The position numbers and the translations under genes were made by a program. Below, in pieces: positions 1,849 through 14,746 of a DNA stretch of 40,826 nt; position 1 is the stretch's first letter, and every line of letters begins with the position of its first letter. The stretch comes from Deltaproteobacteria bacterium (GTDB lineage Bacteria; Desulfobacterota; Desulfomonilia; UBA1062). The DNA lies in assembly GCA_011046135.1 (NCBI GenBank), contig DSBG01000155.1, positions 1 to 40,826 of the forward strand. Direction: 5' to 3'. The notes beneath the pieces are model-generated. The model ran no database searches. It saw nothing but the letters and a program-made list of their open reading frames with translations, and had not been told where the DNA came from.

Positions 1849-3156
1849 TTATGGTGCTATGGAGTTAAGGGCTGATCGTATCCTCTGGTGAAGGTCGTCC
1901 CTGAAGCCTGCATCGGGGGAGATGAAGGAGAGCAGGTGATCCGGGGAGAGGTCCGGATAGGTAAGGAGCAGAATCGGGCAGATACCGAGAATCATGGCGA
2001 GGCCGACCCGCGACTGCCAGGATGCATCCGGAGCCTGGGGCCGTATGCGGGGGATGCCTGTCCCGAACGCCATAAAAACCTCGTCGGGCACGACGTCGCT
2101 GCCCGGAGCAGGACCTGTTCCCGTGGATCGGGACCCGGGGAGACCCTCCCTGATCGTTTTCAGAGCATCTTCAGTGGGCGCCTCGGCCCCGATCAGGGAC
2201 GCCGCCCGCAAGGGATCCAGCCCCTGTTCGATGCAGGCGTGCATGAGTGTGCAGGCATCGAGCGGGCGCAGGGCTGCGAGGGCGGCAAACCCCTCGTGAT
2301 CCATGAGAAACACGCCGCCCGTTCTCTTCTTCCCCCCGTTTCTGGAGGTGAACTCGAGGTAGCTGATGCATGCCAGGGGGCAGTGGAAGCAGGCATGCGA
2401 CTTCCTGAAGTGCTTTCTGATGAGTTTCCTGTGCGCCTGGCCGCCTGCCATGAAGTCCTGCACCACGTACTGCCGTTTCTTGTACCGCGCCCGGAGTTCC
2501 TTCATGAGGATGGAACCCTGCTCGAGGTTCTCTCCGGGAAAGGCGATGCCCCCTGAAGCGAGCAGGGTGATGGCCCTGATGTTCTTTTTCTCGGCGTACG
2601 AGCCCAGCCCCTCTTTATCCAGGCTTCCCCATTGGCCCAGGGACAGCACAGCAGAACCGACGCCGTTCCGGGCAGCCTCGCCGGTCAGGAGGATCGCCTC
2701 GGGGCAGAACCTCCCCCGTGACATGAGCGTCCGTTCCCTCCGGGAGATCTCTCCCTCGAGCATCCCGGCCCCGGAGATCTTGACTGCGTCATTCATGACT
2801 TCGAGCATGACCGGTTCTGGAGACTGCCCGGTGATGACGAGGAAGTCGAAACCAGAGAACTTCAGCTGGGGACCGGAATTGACCAGGAAGGGGACGTGGA
2901 TGAGAGTCTTCGTGTCCGGCGAGAAGGTGGCGACCATGAGACACGAGGCAGGCGCGAAGCTTCCCGTGAGCGGGCCGCATCCCAGCACGATCGGGTCCTG
3001 GCCTGCAAAGTGCTCGTGCAGCAGTCTCGTGACCCCTGCCCCACCGATTGCCTCGGAGAGCATGCCGGGTGGCACAGGCATGAACTCCACCCGCGAGGTG
3101 TTCAGGTCAACGTGGGCGACCCTGTTGTTATAGAAGGATTTCAGGAATACGTCCAT
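1849..3156 (-). CDS. Shortened AOR-family protein (tungsten aldehyde:ferredoxin oxidoreductase-like)
   Basis: A 435-residue member of the aldehyde:ferredoxin oxidoreductase family, whose usual length is about 600. The N-terminal AOR domain is recognisable (residues 8-110, with IGGAGVTR and LGCGPLTG). The AOR iron-sulfur motif C-x2-C-x3-C is kept at C256/C259/C263, with a plausible fourth ligand at C393 (LGICP). The second half is much shorter: the HDPRG stretch found in the full-length paralogue at 12035-13849 is absent, and a low-complexity Gly/Pro/Ser stretch (about 338-355) sits in its place. The ATG at 3156 follows GAGGTGA and overlaps the upstream NapH-like gene by 16 nt, so the two are probably translationally coupled. 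It is the last gene of the redox operon. Cofactor binding without catalysis, i.e. a structural or electron-transfer subunit, is my inference; a catalytic role on an unusual substrate is not excluded. Confidence 0.8.
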   Translation of the reverse strand: MDVFLKSFYNNRVAHVDLNTSRVEFMPVPPGMLSEAIGGAGVTRLLHEHFAGQDPIVLGCGPLTGSFAPASCLMVATFSPDTKTLIHVPFLVNSGPQLKFSGFDFLVITGQSPEPVMLEVMNDAVKISGAGMLEGEISRRERTLMSRGRFCPEAILLTGEAARNGVGSAVLSLGQWGSLDKEGLGSYAEKKNIRAITLLASGGIAFPGENLEQGSILMKELRARYKKRQYVVQDFMAGGQAHRKLIRKHFRKSHACFHCPLACISYLEFTSRNGGKKRTGGVFLMDHEGFAALAALRPLDACTLMHACIEQGLDPLRAASLIGAEAPTEDALKTIREGLPGSRSTGTGPAPGSDVVPDEVFMAFGTGIPRIRPQAPDASWQSRVGLAMILGICPILLLTYPDLSPDHLLSFISPDAGFRDDLHQRIRSALNSIAP

Positions 3157-4439
3157 GCCTTCACCTCGCCCGGGATGGTCTTCTGCCAGCGGAAGCGGAT
3201 CTTCGCGGACTGGTAGGGGCACGTGTCCACGCAGCGCAGACACATGATGCACTCATCCATGGGGATTTTTGGTGCGATCCCCTCCCGCAGGGCCTCCCGG
3301 TCGATGATGCCCATGGGGCAGGTATCGGCGCACTGCATGCACGAAAACTTCTTGCACTGGTGCGCTCCGATGACGATCTTGATGATTCCGATCTTTGCCG
3401 CAAGGGCAAGCACCGCACCCACCGGGCAGAAGGAGCGGCACCACGACCGCCTCACCCCGAGTTCGAGCCCTGCGATGACGGGAACGATGGCGAGTTCGGC
3501 CCCCTTGATCACGCCGCCCGGACCGTAGGACCTGCAGATACTGCCGATGGGGCACACTGTGCAGAAGGGCTGGAACCCGAGCCCTGCGGCACCGCCCACC
3601 GCTCCTGCCAGGATCCCGTACTTGATCATCCTGCTCTTGAGGAACTTGGGGAGCCCGAACTTGGGCACCACGCTGCCCACCAGGTCGAGGAAGAAGCCGA
3701 AGGGGCACACCCAGCCGCAGAACACCCTGCCGAAGAGGATGGTGATGCCGATGAGCACGAGGGCGGAGGCAAGAGTCACCAGGACCAGCGTCTGGGTGGA
3801 GGCGATGTTCTGGAGCGTACCCGTGGGACAGGGCAGGCTCACGATGCCGGCCGTGAACGAGCAGAAGGTGCCCACCAGAACCACCACGAGCAGGAGAAAG
3901 CTCACCAGCTGGACAGGCCAGCGCAGGAGCCTGATCCAGCCGAGCGCCTTTCCCCGGTAGAAGTGCAGGGCGTCTTCAGGACAGTGCTTGGCGCACAGGG
4001 GGTCCCCGTCACACAGGTCGCACTTCCTCATCCTTCCGGTGAAGGGCTCCTGCAGCGGGGCGGCCTCGGGGCACGCCAGGGTGCAGATGCCGCACTCCAC
4101 GCAGAACACACGCCTGATACGCACAATCCCGGCCTCGTCCTTGTCGATGGCACGAACCGGACAGGCCTCCATGCACAGGGGCTCCCTGCAGTGCAGGCAC
4201 AGGATTGCAAAATTCTTTCCCTGTTCCTCCGAGTGTACCACCTTTACGCTCGAGGACACAGGAGCCACCTTATCCACATTGCGCTGTGAGCAGACCATCT
4301 CGCAGGTGGAGCACCCCGTACACCTGGCCGGATCGAACACGATCACGGGAGGCCGCCTGGGGAGCCTGGGTTTTTCCGGTAGGGGCCGCAACTCCTCGAT
4401 ACCGATGAACTTCCTCGCTTGGGTGGTTTGTTCCTGCAT
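3141..4439 (-). CDS. NapH-like membrane polyferredoxin with N-terminal four-cluster ferredoxin domain
   Basis: A 432-residue membrane iron-sulfur protein combining two modules. Residues 40-153 are an HycB/DmsB-type ferredoxin domain with four Cys groups (starting at C40, C81, C113 and C140). Residues about 170-350 hold several membrane segments with the NapH/NosR-type signatures CGWVCPFG (241-248), CTVCPIG (293-299) and CRSFCPVG (334-341). The C-terminus adds two [4Fe-4S] motifs (362-374 and 397-407). NapH-family proteins pass electrons between the quinone pool and partner ferredoxins, and a NapG-like partner is encoded at 11223-11909 in the same operon. I chose the ATG at 4439 because a purine-rich GAGAG lies about 8 nt upstream; an ATG at 4463 would overlap the preceding gene but has no ribosome-binding site. 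The fusion of a DmsB-type domain onto NapH is unusual. Confidence 0.83.
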   Translation of the reverse strand: MQEQTTQARKFIGIEELRPLPEKPRLPRRPPVIVFDPARCTGCSTCEMVCSQRNVDKVAPVSSSVKVVHSEEQGKNFAILCLHCREPLCMEACPVRAIDKDEAGIVRIRRVFCVECGICTLACPEAAPLQEPFTGRMRKCDLCDGDPLCAKHCPEDALHFYRGKALGWIRLLRWPVQLVSFLLLVVVLVGTFCSFTAGIVSLPCPTGTLQNIASTQTLVLVTLASALVLIGITILFGRVFCGWVCPFGFFLDLVGSVVPKFGLPKFLKSRMIKYGILAGAVGGAAGLGFQPFCTVCPIGSICRSYGPGGVIKGAELAIVPVIAGLELGVRRSWCRSFCPVGAVLALAAKIGIIKIVIGAHQCKKFSCMQCADTCPMGIIDREALREGIAPKIPMDECIMCLRCVDTCPYQSAKIRFRWQKTIPGEVKAWTYS

Positions 4440-4455
4440 CCTTGCGCTCTCTTGT

Positions 4456-4905
4456 CTAGGCATTACGCATGAGGTAGACTTTTCTCCTGCATGCGGGGCA
4501 CATGTTCAGGAACTCCGTCGGCTCCTCTTTGAGTCTTTCGGAGATGAACTCCATCACATGAACCGGAACATACTGTTCGCCACACCCCTGACAGGTGCGG
4601 ACCTCCTGTACCTTCCCGCTTACAATGGCCAGGTGCCTGAGCCCCCTGATCAGATCCCGATCGCTGACACCGGCGGGACACACATCCGTACCTGCATTGC
4701 ACTCCGTGCAGTACCAGAGATGTTCATCAGAGAGGATATCAGCGTCCATGAGTACCTTCTTGATCACCCCGCGGGGCGACATTTCGATGGAGAAATTCGG
4801 GTACATCTCGGCCATGGGGCAGACCGCCACGCAGCGCCCGCACTCCACGCAGGCAAACGCCCGTGATGCGACCATGACTGATCGGATATCGTCTCTCCTG
4901 CTCAT
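4456..4905 (-). CDS. Small HdrC-like iron-sulfur protein with CxxC/CxxC tail
   Basis: A 149-residue protein resembling HdrC, the small [4Fe-4S] subunit that relays electrons in heterodisulfide-reductase-type complexes. The first cluster motif is complete (C19, C22, C25, C29). The second is CTECNAGTDVC: Cys at 66, 69 and 76, but Gly at 72 where a fourth Cys is expected, so this site may hold a three-Cys cluster. The C-terminus has two CxxC pairs (C105/C108 and C136/C139), like a zinc ribbon or rubredoxin-type knuckle, which standard HdrC lacks. The ATG follows GAAAGG and starts one base after the stop of the formate-dehydrogenase-like gene, so the two are co-translated. Its likely job is electron relay between that enzyme or the HdrA core and the membrane protein encoded next. 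Confidence 0.8.
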   Translation of the reverse strand: MSRRDDIRSVMVASRAFACVECGRCVAVCPMAEMYPNFSIEMSPRGVIKKVLMDADILSDEHLWYCTECNAGTDVCPAGVSDRDLIRGLRHLAIVSGKVQEVRTCQGCGEQYVPVHVMEFISERLKEEPTEFLNMCPACRRKVYLMRNA

Positions 4906-4906
4906 G

Positions 4907-6937
4907 TCAACCTTTCTCCAGCCTGGCGGCGCAGACCTTGAGTTCGGGCATCTTGGAGTCCGGATCGAGCTCTTCAATGGTCAGGGCATTGGCCGGGGCC
5001 TCGCTGAAGTGGAACGGGGCAAAGAGCGACCCTTCCATCACCCTGGTGGTTATCCGGGCAAAGGTCTCGATGCTCCCCCTGCGGGTGGTCACCGTTACAC
5101 CACCACCCTCCACAATACCGAGCCGTGCGGCATCGGCAGGGTGTATCTCCACAAAGGGCTTGTCCACTTCGCGGTCGAGGAAGGGTGAACGCCTGGTCAT
5201 GGTGCCCGTGTGGTAGTGGGAAAACATCCGGCCGGTATTGAGCACGAACGGGTAGTTCTCGTCAGGCATCTCCTTGGGAGGGGTGTATTTCGGCACCACG
5301 AAGAGCCCTTTGCCCCGGGTGAAGGTGTCCTTGTGGAGGTAGCGGGTGCCTGGGTGGTCGTCGCTGGGCACAGGCCACTGGAGCCCGTGGGTACCGAGCC
5401 TGTCAAAATGGACCCCTGCCATGATGGGGGTCAGCGCCGCGATCTCGTCCATGACCTCGGAGGGGTCTGCGTAGTCGCCCTTCAGCCCGAAGGCCTTCAA
5501 GAGCAGACACAGGATGGAAAAATCGTCCTTTGCCTCTCCCGGGGGGTCCACGGCCTTGCGCAGGAGCTGGATCCGCCGCTCGGTGTTGGTGAAGGTGCCT
5601 GTCTTCTCTGCATAGCATGCAGCGGGCAGCACCAGGTCTGCATAGCGGGCGGTCTCGGTCATGAAGAGGTCCTGCGCGATGAAGAAATCGAGCTTCGGGA
5701 TCATCTCCATGAGGTGGCCCTGGTTGGGATCGCTCAGCAGGGGGTTTTCACCCATGGTGTACAGCGTACGGACCGTGGTGCCGGCGGCGGCAAAGATCTC
5801 GGTGACGGTGAGCCCTGGTTTTCTCGAGAGGTCCCTGCCCCAGGCCTGTGCAAACTTCGCATGGTTTTTCTCGTCCGCAACTGCCTGGTAGCCGGGGTAG
5901 ACATTGGGCAGGGCGCCCACGTCGCATGCCCCCTGGACATTGTTCTGTCCTCTCAGCGGGCAGATGCCGGAGTGGGGCTTGCCCACGTGGCCGCAGAGCA
6001 GGGCGAGGTTGCAGATGGCGTAGACGTTCGAGGTGCCGCAGGCGTGCTGGGTGATGCCCATGCAAAAGACGATGGAGGCCTCCCGGGCCCGCGCATAGAG
6101 TTCAGCCACCTTTCTGATGTCCTCCAGCGGGATGCCGCACTCGCGGGAGAGCTCTTCCAGGGTACGCTGGGAGAGGTACTCCTTCATCTCGGTGAACCCG
6201 TCGGTTCTGCTCGCAATGAACTCCCTGTTCTCAAGGGAAGCGTCCAGGATCAGCTTCATCATGGCATCGATCAGCGGGATGTCGGTTCCGGAATTGATCT
6301 GGAGGTGCATATCGGCGTTGTTGGCGACTTCCGTCCTCCTGGGATCGACCACGACCAGGACTGCTCCGTTGTCGCGAGCCTTGTAGATCTCGCCCATGAT
6401 GATGGGATGTGTCTCGGCTGCGTTCGATCCGATGATGAGGATGCACTCCGCCCCGGAAAAGTCCGCGATGGAGTTCGTCATGGCGCCGCTGCCCAGTGCA
6501 TAGGCCATGGCAGCGGCAGTGGGTCCGTGGCAGAGCCTGGCGCAGTGATCCACGTTGTTGGTTCCAAGTCCGGCCCTGATGAGCTTCTGGAAGAGGTAGT
6601 TCTCCTCATTGGTGCACCGTGCGGAACTGAGACTTGCAACGGCATCGGGTCCGTGGGCCTTCACGGTCTCTTTGAGTCTGTCGGCGGCAAGACCGATGGC
6701 CTCGTCCCATGATAGTTCCTTGAACTTCCCGTTTTTCTTCAGAAGGGGCTTGGTAAGCCGATCGGGGTGATGGATAAACTCGTGGGCTGTCCACCCCTTG
6801 ATACACAGCCCTCCCCTTGACACGGGATGGGAACGATCAGCCAGGGTAGTGACGGCCCTGCCGCCTTTCACCTGGAGGATGATCCCGCAGCCGGTCCCGC
6901 AGTAAGGGCAGATGGTCTTGATAAAGTTCAGGTTCAT
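4907..6937 (-). CDS. Formate-dehydrogenase-like molybdopterin oxidoreductase, Cys form
   Basis: A 676-residue catalytic subunit of the molybdopterin (DMSO reductase superfamily) type, most like the cytoplasmic formate dehydrogenase alpha chain. The N-terminus carries one [4Fe-4S] site (C10, C13, C17, C45). The metal-ligand region reads HCARLCHGPT: C136 stands where many formate dehydrogenases have selenocysteine, followed by the conserved His137. The usual pterin-binding segments follow (GSNAAETHP, VVDPRRTEVA, GQNNVQGACDVG), with a C-terminal molydopterin-dinucleotide-binding domain (LNTGRMFSHYH onward). There is no N-terminal extra ferredoxin region and no signal peptide, so it should be cytoplasmic. 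The ATG has GGGGAGG upstream and shares ATGA with the stop of the FrhB/HdrC-like gene. With MvhD and HdrA encoded next to it, the likely role is formate oxidation or CO2 reduction coupled to the HdrA flavoproteins; the substrate is inferred. Confidence 0.88.
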   Translation of the reverse strand: MNLNFIKTICPYCGTGCGIILQVKGGRAVTTLADRSHPVSRGGLCIKGWTAHEFIHHPDRLTKPLLKKNGKFKELSWDEAIGLAADRLKETVKAHGPDAVASLSSARCTNEENYLFQKLIRAGLGTNNVDHCARLCHGPTAAAMAYALGSGAMTNSIADFSGAECILIIGSNAAETHPIIMGEIYKARDNGAVLVVVDPRRTEVANNADMHLQINSGTDIPLIDAMMKLILDASLENREFIASRTDGFTEMKEYLSQRTLEELSRECGIPLEDIRKVAELYARAREASIVFCMGITQHACGTSNVYAICNLALLCGHVGKPHSGICPLRGQNNVQGACDVGALPNVYPGYQAVADEKNHAKFAQAWGRDLSRKPGLTVTEIFAAAGTTVRTLYTMGENPLLSDPNQGHLMEMIPKLDFFIAQDLFMTETARYADLVLPAACYAEKTGTFTNTERRIQLLRKAVDPPGEAKDDFSILCLLLKAFGLKGDYADPSEVMDEIAALTPIMAGVHFDRLGTHGLQWPVPSDDHPGTRYLHKDTFTRGKGLFVVPKYTPPKEMPDENYPFVLNTGRMFSHYHTGTMTRRSPFLDREVDKPFVEIHPADAARLGIVEGGGVTVTTRRGSIETFARITTRVMEGSLFAPFHFSEAPANALTIEELDPDSKMPELKVCAARLEKG

Positions 6938-7782
6938 GATCCTCCCCTGAGTGAATCAATCCATGCCGGCTCCTGAAACAGGGTGCCCTCACCCTTTTCC
7001 TGTTCTGTCAGAACAGGGGAGACCCTCTCCGGATCGAGACCGGGCTCGTAGGCGTACTGTGACTTGAGCGTCTCGCGCATGGAGACCTGAAGGAGCATGA
7101 GGGGAATATTCACCGGACAGGTGTCCGTACAGCCGGCGCAGGATACGCACGTGTCCGAGAGGTGGAACGCCCTGATGAGGTGGTAGGAGACCATGTCGGC
7201 AGGGATGTGACCGCGCTTCACCCACAGATCATCCTCCAGCTTGCAGGGGATGCACACGCAGATGGGACACACGTTCCTGCAGCCGTAGCACTTGATGCAC
7301 CTGTTGAGTTCACGGGCCCAGCGTTTCATCCTTTCTTCCATGCTGCCGGTAAGAAACAGCTGTGCCTGTTCGTCGTTCATGGGATACATCCCTTCGACCC
7401 GCTCTCCCGCAACGATCTCCCTGGGGTACGGAGTGCTGCACAGACATTTCCTGGCCTGCTCCGCGGTGCAGGGAATTCCCAGAAGGGTCAGACGGTTACG
7501 ATCGAGCTGGTTCCGCTTCGCCAGTTCCGTGACCGCCCGATCGTCACACCCCCGGCAGACGAGGCCCAGCCGGTATTCCTGAGGTGCTGTCTTCAGGATA
7601 TTCATGGCGAGTTTTGCGAGAAGCCACTTGGGCTCGATGACCAGGGCATCAACGTCAAAGGGATCCTCGAAAAGACAGGGAACGGGCTCTTTTTCGAAGA
7701 GGCTCAGGCCTAGAACCCCGTCGACCCGACGGTCCTTGAGCAGCGCCTTCACCCGGGTGAGGACCTCTTCTCGAAGGCTCAT
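6934..7782 (-). CDS. FrhB/HdrC-like dicluster iron-sulfur protein
   Basis: A 282-residue protein with a short N-terminal part resembling the FrhB/FdhB family (Cys-rich stretches LVCRGCDD near 75-80 and GIPCTAEQARKCLC near 102-115). Its C-terminal half is HdrC-like, with two complete [4Fe-4S] motifs at C162/165/168/172 and C212/215/218/222. An extra Cys run (CPICVCIPC, 172-180) sits after the first motif. Such proteins connect a formate dehydrogenase or hydrogenase module to MvhD and HdrA. The ATG at 7782 has GAGGAGA upstream and overlaps the MvhD gene stop by four bases, and the gene's own stop overlaps the next start in the same way: a tight translationally coupled trio. Flavin binding by the N-terminal part cannot be judged from the sequence alone. 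Confidence 0.8.
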   Translation of the reverse strand: MSLREEVLTRVKALLKDRRVDGVLGLSLFEKEPVPCLFEDPFDVDALVIEPKWLLAKLAMNILKTAPQEYRLGLVCRGCDDRAVTELAKRNQLDRNRLTLLGIPCTAEQARKCLCSTPYPREIVAGERVEGMYPMNDEQAQLFLTGSMEERMKRWARELNRCIKCYGCRNVCPICVCIPCKLEDDLWVKRGHIPADMVSYHLIRAFHLSDTCVSCAGCTDTCPVNIPLMLLQVSMRETLKSQYAYEPGLDPERVSPVLTEQEKGEGTLFQEPAWIDSLRGGS

Positions 7783-8273
7783 TCGTTCTCTCCTCGCGCA
7801 CTCATCGCTCTGACAAACGATCTTGACCAGGCGGAGACCGGCGGCATCTCCCCGATCTGAGAGCAGAACGATTCGATGGCCTGGGCAAACTGGTGATACT
7901 CGTGTGCGGTCCCGTAACTGGTGAAGAGTCTCCTGGAGTCTATGCCCACGGTGTCGAGCAGTGGCTTGAGCAGCTCGAGTTTCCGTGCAGACCGGAGATT
8001 CGCCCCGTTGTGCCGGCAGCCTCCCAGGTGGCATCCCATGACGGCAACACCATCGATTCCCGAAGTAAAGGCACGGATGACGGCATCTGCTTCAACGCGG
8101 GAGATGCACTCCACCGGGATGACCCTGAAGGTAGCGGGCAGCGATATCCTCTTCTTTCCCGCACCATCGGCACCGATCAGCGCACACCAGGTGCACGCGA
8201 AGACCACGATCTTCCGCCCTGCCCCTTCCAGAACGACTTGGATATTCCCGCTGTCTTCAGTCCTGTCGGTCAT
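7779..8273 (-). CDS. MvhD-like [2Fe-2S] electron-transfer subunit
   Basis: A 164-residue MvhD-family protein ('hydrogenase iron-sulfur subunit'). MvhD carries a [2Fe-2S] cluster and passes electrons from a hydrogenase or formate dehydrogenase to HdrA. The family signature is clear: FACTWCALIGAD with C27 and C30, VECISRV with C56, and VMGCHLGGCR with C81 and C86. About 20 residues precede the domain and about 40 follow it. It lies directly between the HdrA-like gene at 8277-9995 and the FrhB/HdrC-like gene, which is where MvhD genes sit in Hdr-Fdh and Hdr-Mvh operons. The ATG is three bases downstream of the HdrA-like stop, with AAGGAA as the probable ribosome-binding site inside that gene's end. 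Confidence 0.9.
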   Translation of the reverse strand: MTDRTEDSGNIQVVLEGAGRKIVVFACTWCALIGADGAGKKRISLPATFRVIPVECISRVEADAVIRAFTSGIDGVAVMGCHLGGCRHNGANLRSARKLELLKPLLDTVGIDSRRLFTSYGTAHEYHQFAQAIESFCSQIGEMPPVSAWSRSFVRAMSARGENE

Positions 8274-8276
8274 GTC

Positions 8277-9995
8277 TCAGCTTCCTTGCTCACATACTGC
8301 CTTGAGCATCTCTCCTATTGCCATGGCACTGTGCCCCGGGAGCTGAATAGATCCGTTGGGGCAGACGGAAACACAACTCCCGCACCCGCTGCAGCGGATG
8401 AGGTTCACCGTGGACTTCAATGCACCTTCTTTCTTTTCAAGGGAGCAGGCATCGTAGGGGCAGACGGCCACACAGTTTCCGCAACCCGTGCATGCTTCAT
8501 GGTCTACACGGGCAAGGGAGAATTTCCGCTCCCGGTAGGTGCTCAGGCGTGAAGCCGCAAGGGTGCCCCTGCTGATAAGCTCATAGGCCTTCATGGCAGC
8601 AGCCTCACCCTGGAGGACGGCACTGCGTCCAAGGACCGGCCACCTGGCCGACCCGCACACGAAGACCCCCTCCCGTTTCGTCTCCAGGGGGTGCATGAGG
8701 GTCCTGACCTCGTAGAATCCGTGCTCGTCCCTGTTCAGCCCGAAGAGCTCCGCGATCCTGCCGGCATCGTCGTGCGGTGCCAGGGGGGTGGAGAGCACGA
8801 CGAGATCTGCCTTGATCCTGCGCATCTCGGAGGTGAGGGCATCGTAGACCTCAACCGAGTCCACGTTCTCGTCTCCGAGGACGACCGGCGGTCTGTCCTG
8901 CTCATAGCGGAGGAACCGCACTCCCCTGGCCATGGCATCGCGATAGTACTTCTCGAGAACACTTCCCGGACACATGATATCCCGGTGGAGGACGAAGACC
9001 TCTGCCTGGGGATCTACGTCAAGCACCTGGCATGCCTGTTTGAGACTCACGATGCAGCAGATGGCTGAACAGTAGGGTCGCTTCCTGTCACGCACCCCGA
9101 CGCACTGGATGAACACGACCCTGTTCCCCTCGAGCTGCCCGGCCTTGAAGCGTCTCTCCAGCTCGATGCCGGTGAGCACCCCCTCAAGGTTGCCATGCCG
9201 ATAGAGACCGTCTGGCATGAGGATCTTTGCCCCGGTGGCCACGATAACCGCCCCCACCCTGATTGCATGCTCTGTTTTCCCAGACGAGAACGAGATCGTG
9301 AAATCCCCTGCAGAGCCGTGGGCCGAGATCAGTTTCGCTCCAGGGTAATGGGAAACACCACCGTTAGAAGCAAAGATCGTCTGCTGTTTCTGCGAAAGGT
9401 ACTCATCTGAGGTCACATCCTCGGGAGCGATGCGCTTGACGAGGTTCAACAGGCCCCCCGGTGACTTCGCCCGGTCGAGGAGGTGAACCCGAACCCCCAG
9501 GCGGACCAGGGATGCTGCAGCAGAGATGCCGGCAGGACCCGCCCCGAGAACGAAAACCTCGCGGACCGGGTCCACCATCACCTCGTCGGGGTTCTCCCTG
9601 TGCCGCTGCAGTGCCACCCCCATGCGGAGGAGGTCGATGGCCTTGGTGGTGGCCTCTCGGGGCTGACCGTGGTGAATCCACGAACACCCTTCCCTGATGT
9701 CAACCACCTCGACGGTGTCCGGTGAGATCCCTTTCTCCTCGAGAGCGGTGCGGATTCGATCACCGCGGGCATACAGGGAACATGCCCCCAGGACAAGCCC
9801 CGTTGCATCGGGATCTTCGACACGGGAGGCGAGCACATCCATATCTTCTTCCAGGCACAGGGAATTCCGCACATCCAGGGATCTGACTCCGGGATGGCTC
9901 TTGAGGGCCCTGGCCACCTCGTCGAGGTCAATGACACGACTGATCTCTCCGTGGCACCTGCAGAGGAAACACCGTATGGACCGGTCATTTCCCAT
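8277..9995 (-). CDS. HdrA-like FAD/iron-sulfur protein (second HdrA of the operon)
   Basis: A 572-residue HdrA-family flavoprotein. HdrA carries the FAD at which flavin-based electron bifurcation occurs in heterodisulfide-reductase complexes. Seen here: a short N-terminal Cys group (C9, C12, C14), an FAD-binding GAGPAG at 151-156, the HdrA hallmark YCSAICC at 308-314 inside FIQCVGVRDRKRPYCS, and two C-terminal ferredoxin-type [4Fe-4S] sites (C502/505/508/512 and C535/538/541/545). The ATG at 9995 follows GGGGGG and overlaps the upstream HdrA-like gene by 11 nt. MvhD follows immediately, the normal partner. Unlike true Hdr operons, no HdrB gene with CCG domains is present in this cluster, so heterodisulfide is unlikely to be the acceptor. 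Confidence 0.9.
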   Translation of the reverse strand: MGNDRSIRCFLCRCHGEISRVIDLDEVARALKSHPGVRSLDVRNSLCLEEDMDVLASRVEDPDATGLVLGACSLYARGDRIRTALEEKGISPDTVEVVDIREGCSWIHHGQPREATTKAIDLLRMGVALQRHRENPDEVMVDPVREVFVLGAGPAGISAAASLVRLGVRVHLLDRAKSPGGLLNLVKRIAPEDVTSDEYLSQKQQTIFASNGGVSHYPGAKLISAHGSAGDFTISFSSGKTEHAIRVGAVIVATGAKILMPDGLYRHGNLEGVLTGIELERRFKAGQLEGNRVVFIQCVGVRDRKRPYCSAICCIVSLKQACQVLDVDPQAEVFVLHRDIMCPGSVLEKYYRDAMARGVRFLRYEQDRPPVVLGDENVDSVEVYDALTSEMRRIKADLVVLSTPLAPHDDAGRIAELFGLNRDEHGFYEVRTLMHPLETKREGVFVCGSARWPVLGRSAVLQGEAAAMKAYELISRGTLAASRLSTYRERKFSLARVDHEACTGCGNCVAVCPYDACSLEKKEGALKSTVNLIRCSGCGSCVSVCPNGSIQLPGHSAMAIGEMLKAVCEQGS

Positions 9996-11211
9996 GGGAA
10001 GACCCCCCGAGGAAGACTTCCAGGGAAGCAGCAGAAGCCTGCACCACGGAAGCCTCCACGTCCATGGGCTCCCTGCAGAAACCACAGGGGTACATCCTGG
10101 AATAGGACCCCTTCATCAGTCCTTCCTCATCGGTCAGCCCTGCAAGATCGGGTTGACCGGAGGTGAGCGACGGTTTCAGGGCACCGTTGAGCACCACCAT
10201 GTCATAGACCCTGATGAGCCTTTTCTGGGTGGAGGTGTCTTCGTACGTGACCGCGATGCCGCTGCCGTCGGGGAGGGTATAGATGAGGCCGGGCCTCGAC
10301 CTGAGGAGTTCGATGGCGCCCGAGCCGATCTCCCTGAGATAGTACGTGTAGTAGTGCCTGCCCTCGGCTCGCAGATCGGTGTAGAAGATGGTGCACTCGA
10401 TCTCGGGGCTCCTGCGCTTGACCCACTGGGCCTGCTTGAGGGCATGCATGCAGCACACCGCCGAGCAGTAGGGAAAGAGCCTCAAATCCCGTGCACCGGC
10501 ACACTGGATGAACGCGATGCGTTTTGGCTTTGCCCCGTTCCGGGTGAGAATCGCCCCCTTGTTCACACCGGACTCTGCCGTAAGCTCTTCGAACTCGAGG
10601 GAGGTGAGAATGTTCGGGTGGGTTCCGTATCCATAGTCTTCCAGGGGGGAGATGTCGACATCCTGGAACCCGGTCGCCCAGATGATCTCTCCTGCCAGAA
10701 TCGTGCTCTGACTCAGTTCTCCCGTTATATCGATGGCCGCGGTGGGGCAGATATCGACACAGTCCCCGCAGCGGGTACAGGCTTGAGGGTCGATCACATA
10801 GGTCTGCGGATAGGCATGCTCGGGTCCGGAGGAGATCGCGCTGACCGGACACTTCGGGACGCAGCGCCCGCAGAGGATACAGCGCGAGGCATCGATGTAT
10901 CGGGGGCTCTGAGCGAGCCTCACTTCAAGGGAACCATCGATTTCTTCAACAGTGCGTATCTCTGTCAGGGTGTGGAGCACGATGTTTTTGTGCAGCACGC
11001 AGCTGCGGATTTCCGTCCACAGGGGACAGAAGGCACAGTGGTCCGTGGGGTAGAGCTTGTCCAGGGATGCGACCTGACCCCCGAGGCTGGCCTTTCGTTC
11101 GATGAGGTGAACGGTCTTTCCGGCCCTGGCGAGATCGAGGGCGGCCGAGATGCCGGCAACACCCCCCCCTGCTACAAGAACCGGCAATTGAACCTTGCTG
11201 TCCTTTGTCAT
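9985..11211 (-). CDS. HdrA/QmoA-like FAD protein with internal ferredoxin insertion
   Basis: A 408-residue HdrA-family flavoprotein, shorter than canonical HdrA and near the size of QmoA. The FAD-binding VAGGGVAGISAA is at 13-24. DHCAFCPLW (58-65) matches the N-terminal Cys region of HdrA. An inserted ferredoxin segment supplies two complete [4Fe-4S] motifs (C111/114/117/121 and C145/148/151/155), and the hallmark YCSAVCCMHALKQA lies at 248-261. It ends with a CGFC pair (376-379). The start follows GAGG and lies 11 nt after the NapG-like gene. Together with the next gene it gives two different HdrA-type subunits in one operon, suggesting a heterodimeric flavin core, as QmoA/QmoB or HdrA1/HdrA2 pairs do. 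Which one bifurcates cannot be told from motifs. Confidence 0.88.
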   Translation of the reverse strand: MTKDSKVQLPVLVAGGGVAGISAALDLARAGKTVHLIERKASLGGQVASLDKLYPTDHCAFCPLWTEIRSCVLHKNIVLHTLTEIRTVEEIDGSLEVRLAQSPRYIDASRCILCGRCVPKCPVSAISSGPEHAYPQTYVIDPQACTRCGDCVDICPTAAIDITGELSQSTILAGEIIWATGFQDVDISPLEDYGYGTHPNILTSLEFEELTAESGVNKGAILTRNGAKPKRIAFIQCAGARDLRLFPYCSAVCCMHALKQAQWVKRRSPEIECTIFYTDLRAEGRHYYTYYLREIGSGAIELLRSRPGLIYTLPDGSGIAVTYEDTSTQKRLIRVYDMVVLNGALKPSLTSGQPDLAGLTDEEGLMKGSYSRMYPCGFCREPMDVEASVVQASAASLEVFLGGSSHGK

Positions 11212-11222
11212 ACCGGCCTCAC

Positions 11223-11909
11223 TCAGTCACCGATGATCCGGTATCTCCTGGCAAGCTGTGAGATACGTTTCTGGAACCAGGTGGAAAACGGGTCAGGCGG
11301 GAAGCGGGGTGGACCAAGCCTGTCCTCGAGCCGCACGGTAAACCCTCTCGGCGTAGGTTCGTACCGTCTCACCTTCTCGTAGTGCACCACAATGGATTTC
11401 GGGTCTGTGGGACAGCGCCGGTAACAGGCTCCGCACCCCGTGCACGGATCTTCGATCACCACGGGATTCTTGCCGTCGATCAGTTCTATGGCGTCATACT
11501 TGCAAGCCCTGAAACACAGCGTGCAGTTGTCCTGGTTTGTCCAGGAAAGACACGTCTCTCGGTTGATCACGGCATTGCCGATATCCACCTCGTCTTCGGG
11601 AACTTTCTGGATCGCCCCGGTGGGACAGGTCCTGACGCATTCCATGCACAGGATGCACTTCCTCCAGTCAAGTACCGGGGTTCCCAGGTTCATGATCCCA
11701 TCGAAGATCGAGGCGGGGGAGAGGGCCTGGACAGGACAGATATCGATGCACCGGTAGCACCTGGTGCAGTATTTCAGGAACGCTTCTTCAACCAGGGAGG
11801 CCGGGGGCCGGGGCAGCGCCGTTGCTCCGCTCACCTTGAACGCGGTGAACACTGCCCCCGAGGCGACACCACTGACCAGGATCTTGAGAAAGTTTCTGCG
11901 CGACTGCAT
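11223..11909 (-). CDS. NapG/MauM-like ferredoxin with Tat signal
   Basis: A 228-residue iron-sulfur protein of the NapG type. The N-terminus MQSRRNFLKILVSG is a twin-arginine (Tat) signal with a hydrophobic stretch to about residue 30, so the protein is predicted to be exported folded or anchored on the periplasmic side. Four [4Fe-4S] sites follow: C48/51/54/58, C85/88/91/95, the NapG-typical spaced group C120/129/132/136 (CLSW...CTLC), and C156/159/162/166. NapG works with NapH to move electrons from quinol; a NapH-like gene lies six genes downstream in the same operon. It is separated from the AOR gene by 125 bp containing a strong hairpin. A periplasmic location beside cytoplasmic HdrA-type partners is an open topological question. 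Confidence 0.87.
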   Translation of the reverse strand: MQSRRNFLKILVSGVASGAVFTAFKVSGATALPRPPASLVEEAFLKYCTRCYRCIDICPVQALSPASIFDGIMNLGTPVLDWRKCILCMECVRTCPTGAIQKVPEDEVDIGNAVINRETCLSWTNQDNCTLCFRACKYDAIELIDGKNPVVIEDPCTGCGACYRRCPTDPKSIVVHYEKVRRYEPTPRGFTVRLEDRLGPPRFPPDPFSTWFQKRISQLARRYRIIGD

Positions 11910-12034: not shown

Positions 12035-13849
12035 TCAGGCCTTCCTGGCCTCCTGCATGTCCTTGATGGCAAAATCGAGCCCGAGGGCCTTCAGGGTGGC
12101 ATCCGTGGGGATGCCGTTGCTGTCCCAACCGAAGTAGCCATACGTAGACTCGTGCATCTTCTTGGTGTCTTCCTCGGTCCAGATGGCCCCGGCCTTGGGT
12201 CCTTCGGGGAGTTTCTCCGTTGTCAGCCGCACGGGCAGCACATCGTCCTTGCTCCTGATACCTTCGCGCACCTGGAAGCAGCGCTCCAGCGTCATGATCC
12301 GCTTGGCCGTGGCCCAGAACTCGTCATCGGTCATGTTCCACCCGCACAACGGGTTGAGCATGTCGGTATAAACCTTCGGGATTTCCTTGCCCCAGGGATA
12401 GCCGCCGACAAAGGAACACATGGTCAGCGAATTGATCATGGCCCACGTTGCAAGTCCCTGAGGGGTGTTGCCTTCGTGGTGGTCACCGCCACAGGTACCC
12501 ATGGCATAGCTGTAGCCCCTCGGCTTGTCACCCCGGGGATCGTGGGCGGCAATCTCCTTGCCTTTCGTGTGAACGGCCCAGGCCTCAGACCCCTTACCGA
12601 TCTCTTTCGACATCTTAGCGACACCCTGGGCGAGCAGTTTGCCGGCCTTGCCTTCCTTGTGGCCGATCTTCTTGAGCATGACCACCGCAGCGTCGGCATT
12701 GCCGAACTGGAGATCCACGCCGTCGAGATCCTGGGCGGTCAGGACGCCTCGCTGCATACACTCCATGGTGAAGGCGAGCGCCCCGCCGGCACTGATGGCG
12801 TCCAGTCCCATGGCGTCCGCCATCTCGATGGCGGCCATCATGCCGTCGAACTCCTTGAGCCCAAGGTTTGAGCCGAGGAGACCGCCGGTTTCATATTCAG
12901 GGCCTTCTGCAATGAGTCCGTCGTACTTGCCGCCGCGGATCACACCCAGCTTCATGCAGTGCACCGGGCAGTGATGGCAGGCGGTGTGCCGCTTCCAGAA
13001 GGTGCGGTTCGCCTCCTCGCCCCCGAGGTTGTCAATCCAGGGCCACCAGGTGGTCTGGAAGTTCAGCGTGATGAGCGAGCCGTGGGCATAGTGCTTGAGC
13101 TCCAGCAGCCCGGCAGTACCGTAGCGCTTGATCCCCTGCCACGCCTCTCTCTCAACAGCGAGGGTCTTGGCCGCCACCATGGCCTCGTAGGCCTTCTTGT
13201 TGTCAACCGCAGGCACTGCCTTGGTGCCGCGCACCGCGATGGCCTTGAGCTTCTTGTTGCCCATGAGCGCGCCCGTTCCTGTTCTCGCGGCTGCCCGGGA
13301 ACGTTCGACCATCAAGGCGGCATACCCGACCTCATTTTCTCCGCCCGGGCCGATGCATGCGATCTTTGCATAGGGTTCCTTGATGGCTGCATAGACCATG
13401 TCTTCGGTCTCCAGGGTGTCCTTGCCCCAGATCTTGGCTGCATCGATGAACCGCACCTTGTCGTCGTTGATGTAGAGCACCACGGGATTCTTGGACTTTC
13501 CCGTGATGTAGATGCCGTCCCAGCCGGCCCACTTGATCTCGTTGGGGAAGTGGCCACCCACCTCGGCATGACTCAAGAGCCCGGTGTAGGGGTTCTTGTT
13601 CACGACGCTGAGCCTGGTGGAAACGCAGTAGGTGCCGTTGAGAGGGCCGGTGCCCAGATAGATGGGGCTGTCGGCCGCCATGGGGTCATGGCCCTTCTTG
13701 AGGGCGTTGTACAGGAGATAGGCCCCCATGCCACAGCCACCGATGTACTTCCGGTATTCTTCATCCGAGACCTTGCGTTCCTTGAATTTCTGGTTCGTCA
13801 AGTCTATTTCCAGGATCCTGCCAAAATATCCACCTTTGGGAGCTGCCAT
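12035..13849 (-). CDS. Aldehyde:ferredoxin oxidoreductase family enzyme (tungsten), full length
   Basis: A 604-residue AOR-family protein, the family's normal length. Known members hold a tungsten bis-pterin cofactor and one [4Fe-4S] cluster and oxidise aldehydes or, as in BamB, carry out other low-potential reactions. Seen here: an N-terminal domain with IGGCGMGAYLL and LGTGPLNGT; C291-x2-C294-x3-C298 (ACHHCPVHC) with a distal fourth ligand C478; an acidic segment EGPEYE (315-320) and the HDPRG motif (436-440), both characteristic of the active-site half. There is no signal peptide of its own. The ATG has AGGAGGT upstream and begins three bases after the Tat-ferredoxin gene, so the two form a subunit pair. 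In layout this resembles the Escherichia coli YdhV with its ferredoxin partners; the physiological substrate is not deducible. Confidence 0.92.
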   Translation of the reverse strand: MAAPKGGYFGRILEIDLTNQKFKERKVSDEEYRKYIGGCGMGAYLLYNALKKGHDPMAADSPIYLGTGPLNGTYCVSTRLSVVNKNPYTGLLSHAEVGGHFPNEIKWAGWDGIYITGKSKNPVVLYINDDKVRFIDAAKIWGKDTLETEDMVYAAIKEPYAKIACIGPGGENEVGYAALMVERSRAAARTGTGALMGNKKLKAIAVRGTKAVPAVDNKKAYEAMVAAKTLAVEREAWQGIKRYGTAGLLELKHYAHGSLITLNFQTTWWPWIDNLGGEEANRTFWKRHTACHHCPVHCMKLGVIRGGKYDGLIAEGPEYETGGLLGSNLGLKEFDGMMAAIEMADAMGLDAISAGGALAFTMECMQRGVLTAQDLDGVDLQFGNADAAVVMLKKIGHKEGKAGKLLAQGVAKMSKEIGKGSEAWAVHTKGKEIAAHDPRGDKPRGYSYAMGTCGGDHHEGNTPQGLATWAMINSLTMCSFVGGYPWGKEIPKVYTDMLNPLCGWNMTDDEFWATAKRIMTLERCFQVREGIRSKDDVLPVRLTTEKLPEGPKAGAIWTEEDTKKMHESTYGYFGWDSNGIPTDATLKALGLDFAIKDMQEARKA

Positions 13850-13852
13850 GGC

Positions 13853-14554
13853 CTACCTCCTTCCCCCGTCTGCGTTCGGGTAGTAGAACAACCTGGTGAG
13901 GTCCTTCGCCGCCTGTTCCGGGGTGACCTTGCGGTATGCCATGTTGACGCCGAATCCGCTGACTCCCGCAACCAGGCAGGGTGCCAGCGGCATGGTCGCC
14001 TGTGCCTCGCAGGCCTTGACGCACTCGGGATCTCCGTCGCACATGTCGCACATGAGCGGCTGACCGGTGTCCGGATTCTGCCTGACGAACTCGGCCGGGC
14101 AGGCCTCCTGGCACTTCATGCATTTCGCACCCAGGCAGGTCTTCTCGTTGAGCTTGATGCCGTTGGATTTCGGGTCCTTCTGGATGGACGGCGGATCCGT
14201 TGGGCATGCCGCGATGCAGGGGGCGTCATCACAGTGGTGACAGATCACCGGGACATCCACGATCCCCTTGTATTTCCACACATGGATGCGGGACATCGAA
14301 GGCCGCACCTGTCCCGTGTGGAACATGGAACATGCATACTCGCAGGCCCTGCATCCGGTGCAATTCTGCCGCTCGGCAAAGAGGAATTTCATGACGGGCT
14401 TGGGCTGCTGGGCATGCGCAACCGAGGGCCTGCCACCGCTGATCGCCGAAGCCGTCACTGCCAGCCCTGCTGCAGTTCCGGCACCTTTGAGGAAACTGCG
14501 CCGCGATGTTTCCTTGTCCAATAACTTCGTTAGGTTCTTTTCATCCTTTTCCAT
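13853..14554 (-). CDS. Four-cluster DmsB/HycB-like ferredoxin subunit with Tat signal
   Basis: A 233-residue iron-sulfur protein, the probable electron-transfer partner of the AOR encoded next. Residues 17-23 (SRRSFLK) and the following hydrophobic run to AHAQQ (46-50) form a clear Tat signal with a likely cleavage site. Four [4Fe-4S] groups follow in the DmsB/HycB pattern: C65/68/71/75, C105/108/113/117, C140/145/148/152 and C169/172/178/182. I chose the ATG at 14554 because AAGGAGGA precedes it; a longer frame back to 14731 has no such site and would bury the Tat signal. It is the first gene of the operon, with a promoter at 14694-14721. If the AOR has no signal of its own, it could be co-exported with this subunit through Tat; that is inference. 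Confidence 0.88.
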   Translation of the reverse strand: MEKDEKNLTKLLDKETSRRSFLKGAGTAAGLAVTASAISGGRPSVAHAQQPKPVMKFLFAERQNCTGCRACEYACSMFHTGQVRPSMSRIHVWKYKGIVDVPVICHHCDDAPCIAACPTDPPSIQKDPKSNGIKLNEKTCLGAKCMKCQEACPAEFVRQNPDTGQPLMCDMCDGDPECVKACEAQATMPLAPCLVAGVSGFGVNMAYRKVTPEQAAKDLTRLFYYPNADGGRR

Positions 14555-14693
14555 TCGGGTTCCTCCTTCCCGGATTACCATTGATGGATGGGGTGATTCA
14601 TGATGACCGACACCTGCTGATTGCTCGTCTCCTGATGCATCTTCCCTGAGGCTGATTCTCGCTTTTAAAAGGCCACATCTTTCTCGTTGATAA

Positions 14694-14721
14694 ATAATAC
14701 CATCAAGCCAGGGTTTGTCAA
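14694..14721 (-). promoter_or_regulatory. Sigma70-type promoter of the redox operon
   Basis: On the minus strand a consensus TTGACA (14721-14716) is followed by a 16-bp spacer and TATTAT (14699-14694). The predicted transcription start is near 14687, giving a leader of about 130 nt before the first gene at 14554. It is the only strong -35/-10 pair I see in this 519-bp region and faces the operon. Confidence 0.6.
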
Positions 14722-14746
14722 GGGCCTGCATGACTCTAACCCCCTG

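Follow-up and report, generated by a model that had tools for sequence, protein, structure and literature searches.

The window (the whole stretch of 40,826 nucleotides that was analysed) carries an operon whose final gene encodes sAOR, a short protein with a predicted AOR fold (Table 1). The reading frame is intact, with 435 codons from an ATG at 3156 to a stop at 1849; a ribosome-binding stretch (GAGGTGA) precedes the start, and 16 bp are shared with the upstream gene (3141–4463). In Pfam, sAOR matches AFOR_N at 1.8e-28, as expected for an AOR fold with a beta-sandwich base, and retains AFOR_C as a remnant of 19.9 bits over residues 243–323 (cut-off 27 bits). The complete AFOR_C domains 2 and 3 of an AOR/WOR large subunit (WorL) are missing; the full-length AOR of the operon (12035–13849) scores 225.6 bits for AFOR_N and 327.9 bits for AFOR_C. 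The initial annotation, which described a shortened AOR paralogue of 435 residues, therefore holds, and its residue numbers are exact.

Table 1. Features of the sAOR operon and of the sAOR gene in the window.
Feature	Coordinates	Strand	Basis or remark
sAOR, short AOR-fold protein (predicted), 435 aa	1849..3156	minus	final gene of the operon
Codon of C393, predicted fourth [4Fe-4S] ligand (PfAOR C494)	1978..1980	minus	alignment, co-occurrence
Gly/Pro/Ser linker replacing ~135 residues of AOR domains 2/3	2068..2139	minus	pLDDT, hhalign
CxxCxxxC codons (C256, C259, C263), first three [4Fe-4S] ligands	2368..2391	minus	profile alignment, family statistics
AorA/WorS-type four-cluster ferredoxin domain (residues 40-175) with NapH-like membrane module (WorS-NapH)	3141..4463	minus	PDB matches; NapH 107 bits
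HdrC-like Fe-S protein	4456..4977	minus	
FdhA-type molybdo/tungstopterin formate dehydrogenase catalytic subunit	4907..6937	minus	TIGR01591 808 bits, above cut-off
Fe-S protein, Fer4_8 domain (HdrB/C-like; HdrBx)	6934..8034	minus	true start probably near 7782
MvhD/FlpD-like electron-transfer subunit	7779..8273	minus	PF02662 2.2e-35
HdrA-like flavoprotein HdrA2	8277..10085	minus	true start probably near 9995
HdrA-like flavoprotein HdrA1	9985..11211	minus	
Polyferredoxin, RRNFLK (Tat-like) N terminus	11223..11909	minus	
Full-length AOR (WorL), 604 aa	12035..13849	minus	catalytic residues and four Cys present
AorA/WorS-type small subunit of full-length AOR, Tat signal	13853..14731	minus	8c0z_C 3.3e-27, TIGR01409; true start probably near 14512
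Promoter-like TTGACA-16-TATTAT before the operon (11/12)	14694..14721	minus	consensus match; number found not above shuffles

The 11 genes, several of them assigned to domain level only, recur with their order unchanged in G303, a genome from a different family of the phylum. At E 1e-70, the WorS-NapH fusion was found only in the genome of the window and in G303 among 395 genomes of the phylum. Its N terminus is homologous to AOR small subunits (8c0z_C, 5.7e-30; 9mqx_E, 2.2e-19; 6x6u_B, 7.2e-19) and has the four [4Fe-4S] motifs of WorS/AorA proteins, and hydrophobic segments follow from residue 190. Since sAOR and the full-length AOR each have their own AorA-type neighbour, the operon contains two large/small AOR-type pairs, of which one is catalytic and the other, that of sAOR, is not. 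The proteins at 11223–11909 and 13853–14731 are twin-arginine Fe-S proteins, and HdrA, MvhD and FdhA have no export signal by eye, so the complex encoded by the operon may span the membrane. Two adjacent HdrA-like flavoproteins instead of one, with a stand-alone MvhD, lie at 8277–11211. Ten AFOR_N-containing genes are present in the genome (G000, 2.9 Mb). Another odd AFOR_N protein, at G000:C31:17705-18244 (L010), has an open frame of 669 aa with a partial AFOR_N (60 bits) and is too divergent for a BLAST match by the operon's AOR or sAOR.

The AlphaFold model of sAOR, built on a 15-sequence alignment (pLDDT 77, pTM 0.85), predicts an AOR fold. The superposition on Pyrococcus AOR (1aor) proposed with the initial annotation matched 415 residues (VIA-align Z 29.8, 3.0 Å), covering residues 1–536 of 605. 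A PDB structure search with the model returned nine AOR-family chains followed by a gap, with Foldseek E values of 1e-17 to 1e-19 for these chains versus 0.04 for the next fold, and VIA-align Z scores of 27–30 versus no higher than 4.4 for other PDB folds. Because the coverage of 1aor ends at 536, sAOR is without the final ~70 residues, in addition to an internal stretch of ~135 (AOR residues ~345–480, including Tyr427 and His448). The linker at this place, about residues 340–363 with the sequence GSRSTGTGPAPGSD, had been recognized from its Gly/Pro/Ser composition, and it coincides with the sole long low-confidence stretch of the model (pLDDT < 50 at 342–363). Such a protein would retain the N-terminal beta-sandwich base, the [4Fe-4S] (FS0) region and the C-terminal helices, and would have lost the portions needed to bind and support the tungsten-bis-pterin cofactor.

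Judged by its residues, the W-pterin site of sAOR cannot be complete, because cofactor anchors and second-shell residues are replaced or missing. Functional residues were mapped by profile-profile alignment of 80 sAORs against 16 full-length AORs and 1aor, except that D338 was placed via a shared GLD motif. We take R76, D338 and D489 to be pterin or phosphate contacts in PfAOR. R76 is Arg in 15 of the 16 full-length AORs and in none of the 80 sAORs, which carry Leu, Ala or Ser; D338 is Asp or Asn in 16/16 full-length AORs and mostly Ala in sAORs, and D489 is replaced mostly by Tyr or Met across the sAORs. The position of N93 is occupied by Pro in 78/80 sAORs. With L, P, I and M at R76, N93, D338 and D489, the window protein lacks the W-cofactor anchors, and the pterin pocket, whose completeness the initial annotation had proposed to check, is incomplete. 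The accessible text of PMC12096430 describes N93 as a Mg-binding residue that helps bind the Mg bridging the pterins, and T243, E313, Y427 and H448 as second-shell residues; Asp361 and Asp504 are listed as AorB contacts in the accessible text of PMC10413684. The second-shell set is not retained in sAOR either: T243 is V in the window protein and aliphatic or aromatic across the family, E313 has no counterpart in the sAOR alignment, and Y427 and H448 fall inside the missing stretch. The alignment also confirms the reported absence of the HDPRG motif, the first residue of which aligns with PfAOR Tyr427, itself a conserved second-shell residue. The remnant pocket might instead bind a substrate or an altered cofactor and make sAOR a new kind of catalyst, as residues in the region of the former pocket that are invariant and specific to the family (H87, P89, D180 and R383) and the CoA-ligase and acyl-chain genes near some sAOR loci would suggest. 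However, sAOR has neither the anchors for pterin and Mg nor any of the known second-shell catalytic residues, and we regard this explanation as very unlikely.

The iron-sulfur site is preserved in the window protein. C256, C259 and C263, correctly described as retained in the initial annotation, align exactly with PfAOR C288, C291 and C295, and C393, listed there as a possible ligand, aligns with C494, which completes a four-Cys [4Fe-4S] (FS0) site. C393 is present in 22/22 proteins with an intact CxxCxxxC versus 3/58 without it (Fisher p 8e-17, a statistic that ignores relatedness), and this co-conservation argues that it is a real ligand, by alignment the fourth of the cluster. Of the 80 homologues, 22 have Cys in all four ligand columns and 58 have lost at least two; proteins with exactly three Cys do not occur. 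The cluster-free type includes the sAORs of the culturable Desulfospira joergensenii (L117) and Desulfosarcina cetonica (L075). The cluster label changes four times on the tree, consistent with four losses (at least four places, if never regained). Within the window clade, G303 included, no complete member lacks any of the four Cys, and the archaeal and actinobacterial sAOR branches also keep all four. Since the four-Cys motif occurs in about 99% of AOR family sequences according to the accessible text of PMC10413684, ligand loss in the sAOR branch is unusual. Its extent makes a purely electron-transfer role untenable family-wide and shows that the family can do without electron relay. Thus, of the earlier proposal that an AOR fold was reused as an electron-transfer or structural subunit, the fold without a catalytic site and the complete ligand set stand for the window protein, but pure electron transfer does not extend to the family.

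The persistence of the protein and its ferredoxin neighbour after these losses could also mean that sAOR is purely a structural scaffold or assembly factor, non-redox even in the window, in which a cluster, if present, only stabilizes the fold. Against this, the window clade and the branches of archaea and actinobacteria keep the four ligands together, which implies selection for the cluster in these groups, and we consider a purely structural role rather unlikely.

sAOR is a member of a conserved, widespread and so far overlooked branch of the AOR family. A single-sequence scan of the named genomes gave no match; the alignment-based scan gave 80 loci. The search for orthologues of the same length proposed with the initial annotation yielded about 80 homologues from several bacterial phyla and archaea (distinct sequences rather than independent species, from overlapping named-genome and relatives collections), assigned by the organism names of the records to Desulfobacterota, Actinomycetota, Syntrophomonadaceae, Dehalococcoidia, Theionarchaea and Methanomassiliicoccales. 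In two trees, the sAORs form one clade (100 SH-aLRT) apart from the full-length AORs; with the root on the latter, the window type together with L061, L062 and G303 is the first sAOR branch. Forcing the window clade together with the AOR of its own operon is rejected (AU p=3e-6), and descent of sAOR from that AOR is thereby ruled out. Intact homologues and the AU test likewise exclude a frameshift or local deletion; neither normal-length orthologues showing a local deletion nor a complete active site was found. The ~170 missing residues and the high divergence might be those of a degenerating or recently deleted AOR gene, a future pseudogene. We give this idea virtually no credence, as intact homologues of the same length from archaea and several phyla belong to one deep clade, a genome of a different family has every gene of the operon, and derivation from the AOR of the operon fails the AU test; the orthologues refute it. 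Identity between the window and G303 is 33% for sAOR versus 56% for AOR and 63% for WorS-NapH, a faster divergence that would be expected if part of the protein were only weakly constrained in function and that counts against the reading as a functional subunit favoured below. No short cofactor-free AOR family is described in the papers found by a search of open-licence PMC with partial keyword coverage, and the accessible text of a 2026 classification (PMC13328260) defines the large subunit as pterin-containing.

The best-supported candidate for a partner of sAOR is the AorA/WorS-type ferredoxin domain encoded by the upstream gene with which sAOR overlaps. Among 60 named sAOR loci (up to about 20 kb each), two are cut by a contig end, and in 58/58 of the rest a ferredoxin gene precedes sAOR directly and in the same orientation, with a median gap of 12 bp. 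The stand-alone ferredoxins have eight invariant Cys, corresponding to two clusters, and their profile matches AorA, the 9mqx small subunit and BamC in the PDB, although AorA is matched only locally and HycB/HydN-type ferredoxins match equally well. Because a ferredoxin is always adjacent, sAOR is probably not an enzyme but a subunit for electron relay or docking. Of 55 testable loci, 36 have a gene for a BPL_N-domain protein after sAOR and 6 have one for a CCG (HdrD-like) protein; the BPL_N (glutamine-amidotransferase-like) protein 3' of the ferredoxin and sAOR has ~420 aa (e.g., L117:11313-12569 and L045:6582-7874). Multihaem cytochromes, a b-type cytochrome and GlcD/CCG dehydrogenases are also often encoded at the other loci.

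The initial annotation had suggested that sAOR perhaps pairs with the full-length AOR, which would make it the electron-transfer half of a hetero-oligomer. Both genes share the operon, an orthologue of the AOR is present in 4/4 further genomes with a window-type sAOR (69–71% in the L061, L062 and L106 genomes), and a heterodimer is conceivable given that archaeal AORs are homodimers in the accessible text of PMC6365974. However, 0/60 other loci of the family, each covered over up to about 20 kb, contain a full-length AOR, compared with the constant ferredoxin; its presence in the sAOR operon is confined to the small clade of the window, and the pairing is not general. Moreover, the small subunit of the AOR has a Tat signal and sAOR has none, so the membrane may separate the two, and each large-type gene already has its own AorA-type neighbour. 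Such a pairing is therefore improbable.

Known systems resemble the window operon in part. sAOR shares with AOR/WorL (1aor) the fold over the superposed residues, the four-Cys cluster site and AFOR_N, but it is about 170 residues shorter, lacks the W-bis-pterin anchors and the catalytic Glu/Tyr/His, and belongs to a separate clade. Aromatoleum AorAB/WorLS (8c0z) likewise has a large-type gene beside a multi-cluster AorA-type ferredoxin, and the docking mode is proposed by analogy with it; the differences are that the large subunit sAOR has no cofactor and that the ferredoxin is fused to a NapH-like module in the window and has two clusters instead of four elsewhere. In class II benzoyl-CoA reductase BamBC(DEF), an AOR-type subunit, a small ferredoxin subunit and HdrA/MvhD-like subunits also occur together, but BamB is a full catalytic subunit and FdhA, NapH and a second short AOR subunit are missing. 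The full-length AOR of the window scores 313.8 bits to 1aor versus 183.5 to BamB, and sAOR lies at about the same distance from all of them. Class V WORs (E. coli YdhV, CsWOR41) share the Tat-bearing small subunit and membrane association, and the Tat and/or membrane domain on the small subunit that marks this class (clade 41) is found in the window as TIGR01409 (13853–14731) and the NapH-like fusion (3141–4463); unlike the window operon, they have only a full WorL. Against NF007354 the full-length AOR reaches 212 bits (cut-off 868), a score that alone places it nowhere with respect to clade 41. FDH-Hdr bifurcating complexes (FdhA-HdrABC-MvhD) likewise have FdhA, HdrA, HdrC and MvhD-like genes in one operon, to which the window operon adds AOR, WorS-NapH and sAOR.

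We consider it likely that sAOR is a cofactor-free pseudo-large-subunit on its own AorA-type ferredoxin, which relays electrons or holds the membrane module to the Hdr/FDH part. sAOR would sit on the ferredoxin as AorB sits on AorA, and in the window the WorS-NapH membrane protein, which is co-translated with sAOR, provides this ferredoxin as its N-terminal domain. The cluster of sAOR could serve as an electron relay that links the membrane-bound ferredoxin with the soluble HdrA/MvhD/FdhA module, and sAOR could also dock the one physically to the other. The termini of NapH are probably cytoplasmic. The Tat-bearing AOR pair would work outside the membrane together with the polyferredoxin, NapH would either pass electrons across it or exchange them with quinone, and the WorS domain would face the HdrA/MvhD/FdhA module, as would sAOR. 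The physical complex, the direction of electron flow, the docking surface and the cytoplasmic WorS domain are what we infer from this arrangement. In many other lineages, a docking or assembly role alone would remain because the cluster has been lost there.

Annotation treats AOR-family proteins as tungsten enzymes, and they are counted as such; the sAOR genes are a warning against the label aldehyde oxidoreductase. By its residues, this conserved, ferredoxin-tied branch should be unable to bind the cofactor, and its cluster ligands were lost repeatedly while the protein persists. The family is thus a natural test of which parts of the large subunit serve electron wiring rather than catalysis, and it names a missing subunit of membrane-linked Hdr/FDH/AOR complexes. 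More tentatively, and as a suggestion that we rate as somewhat short of probable, this deep cofactor-free AOR-fold family of bacteria and archaea may be the usual partner on which AorA-type ferredoxins dock or through which they relay electrons, in several respiratory and catabolic modules that are unrelated to one another (GlcD/CCG, multihaem-cytochrome and HdrA/FDH). If true, docking a ferredoxin would be the primary function of the AOR large-subunit fold, with tungsten catalysis as one use among several.
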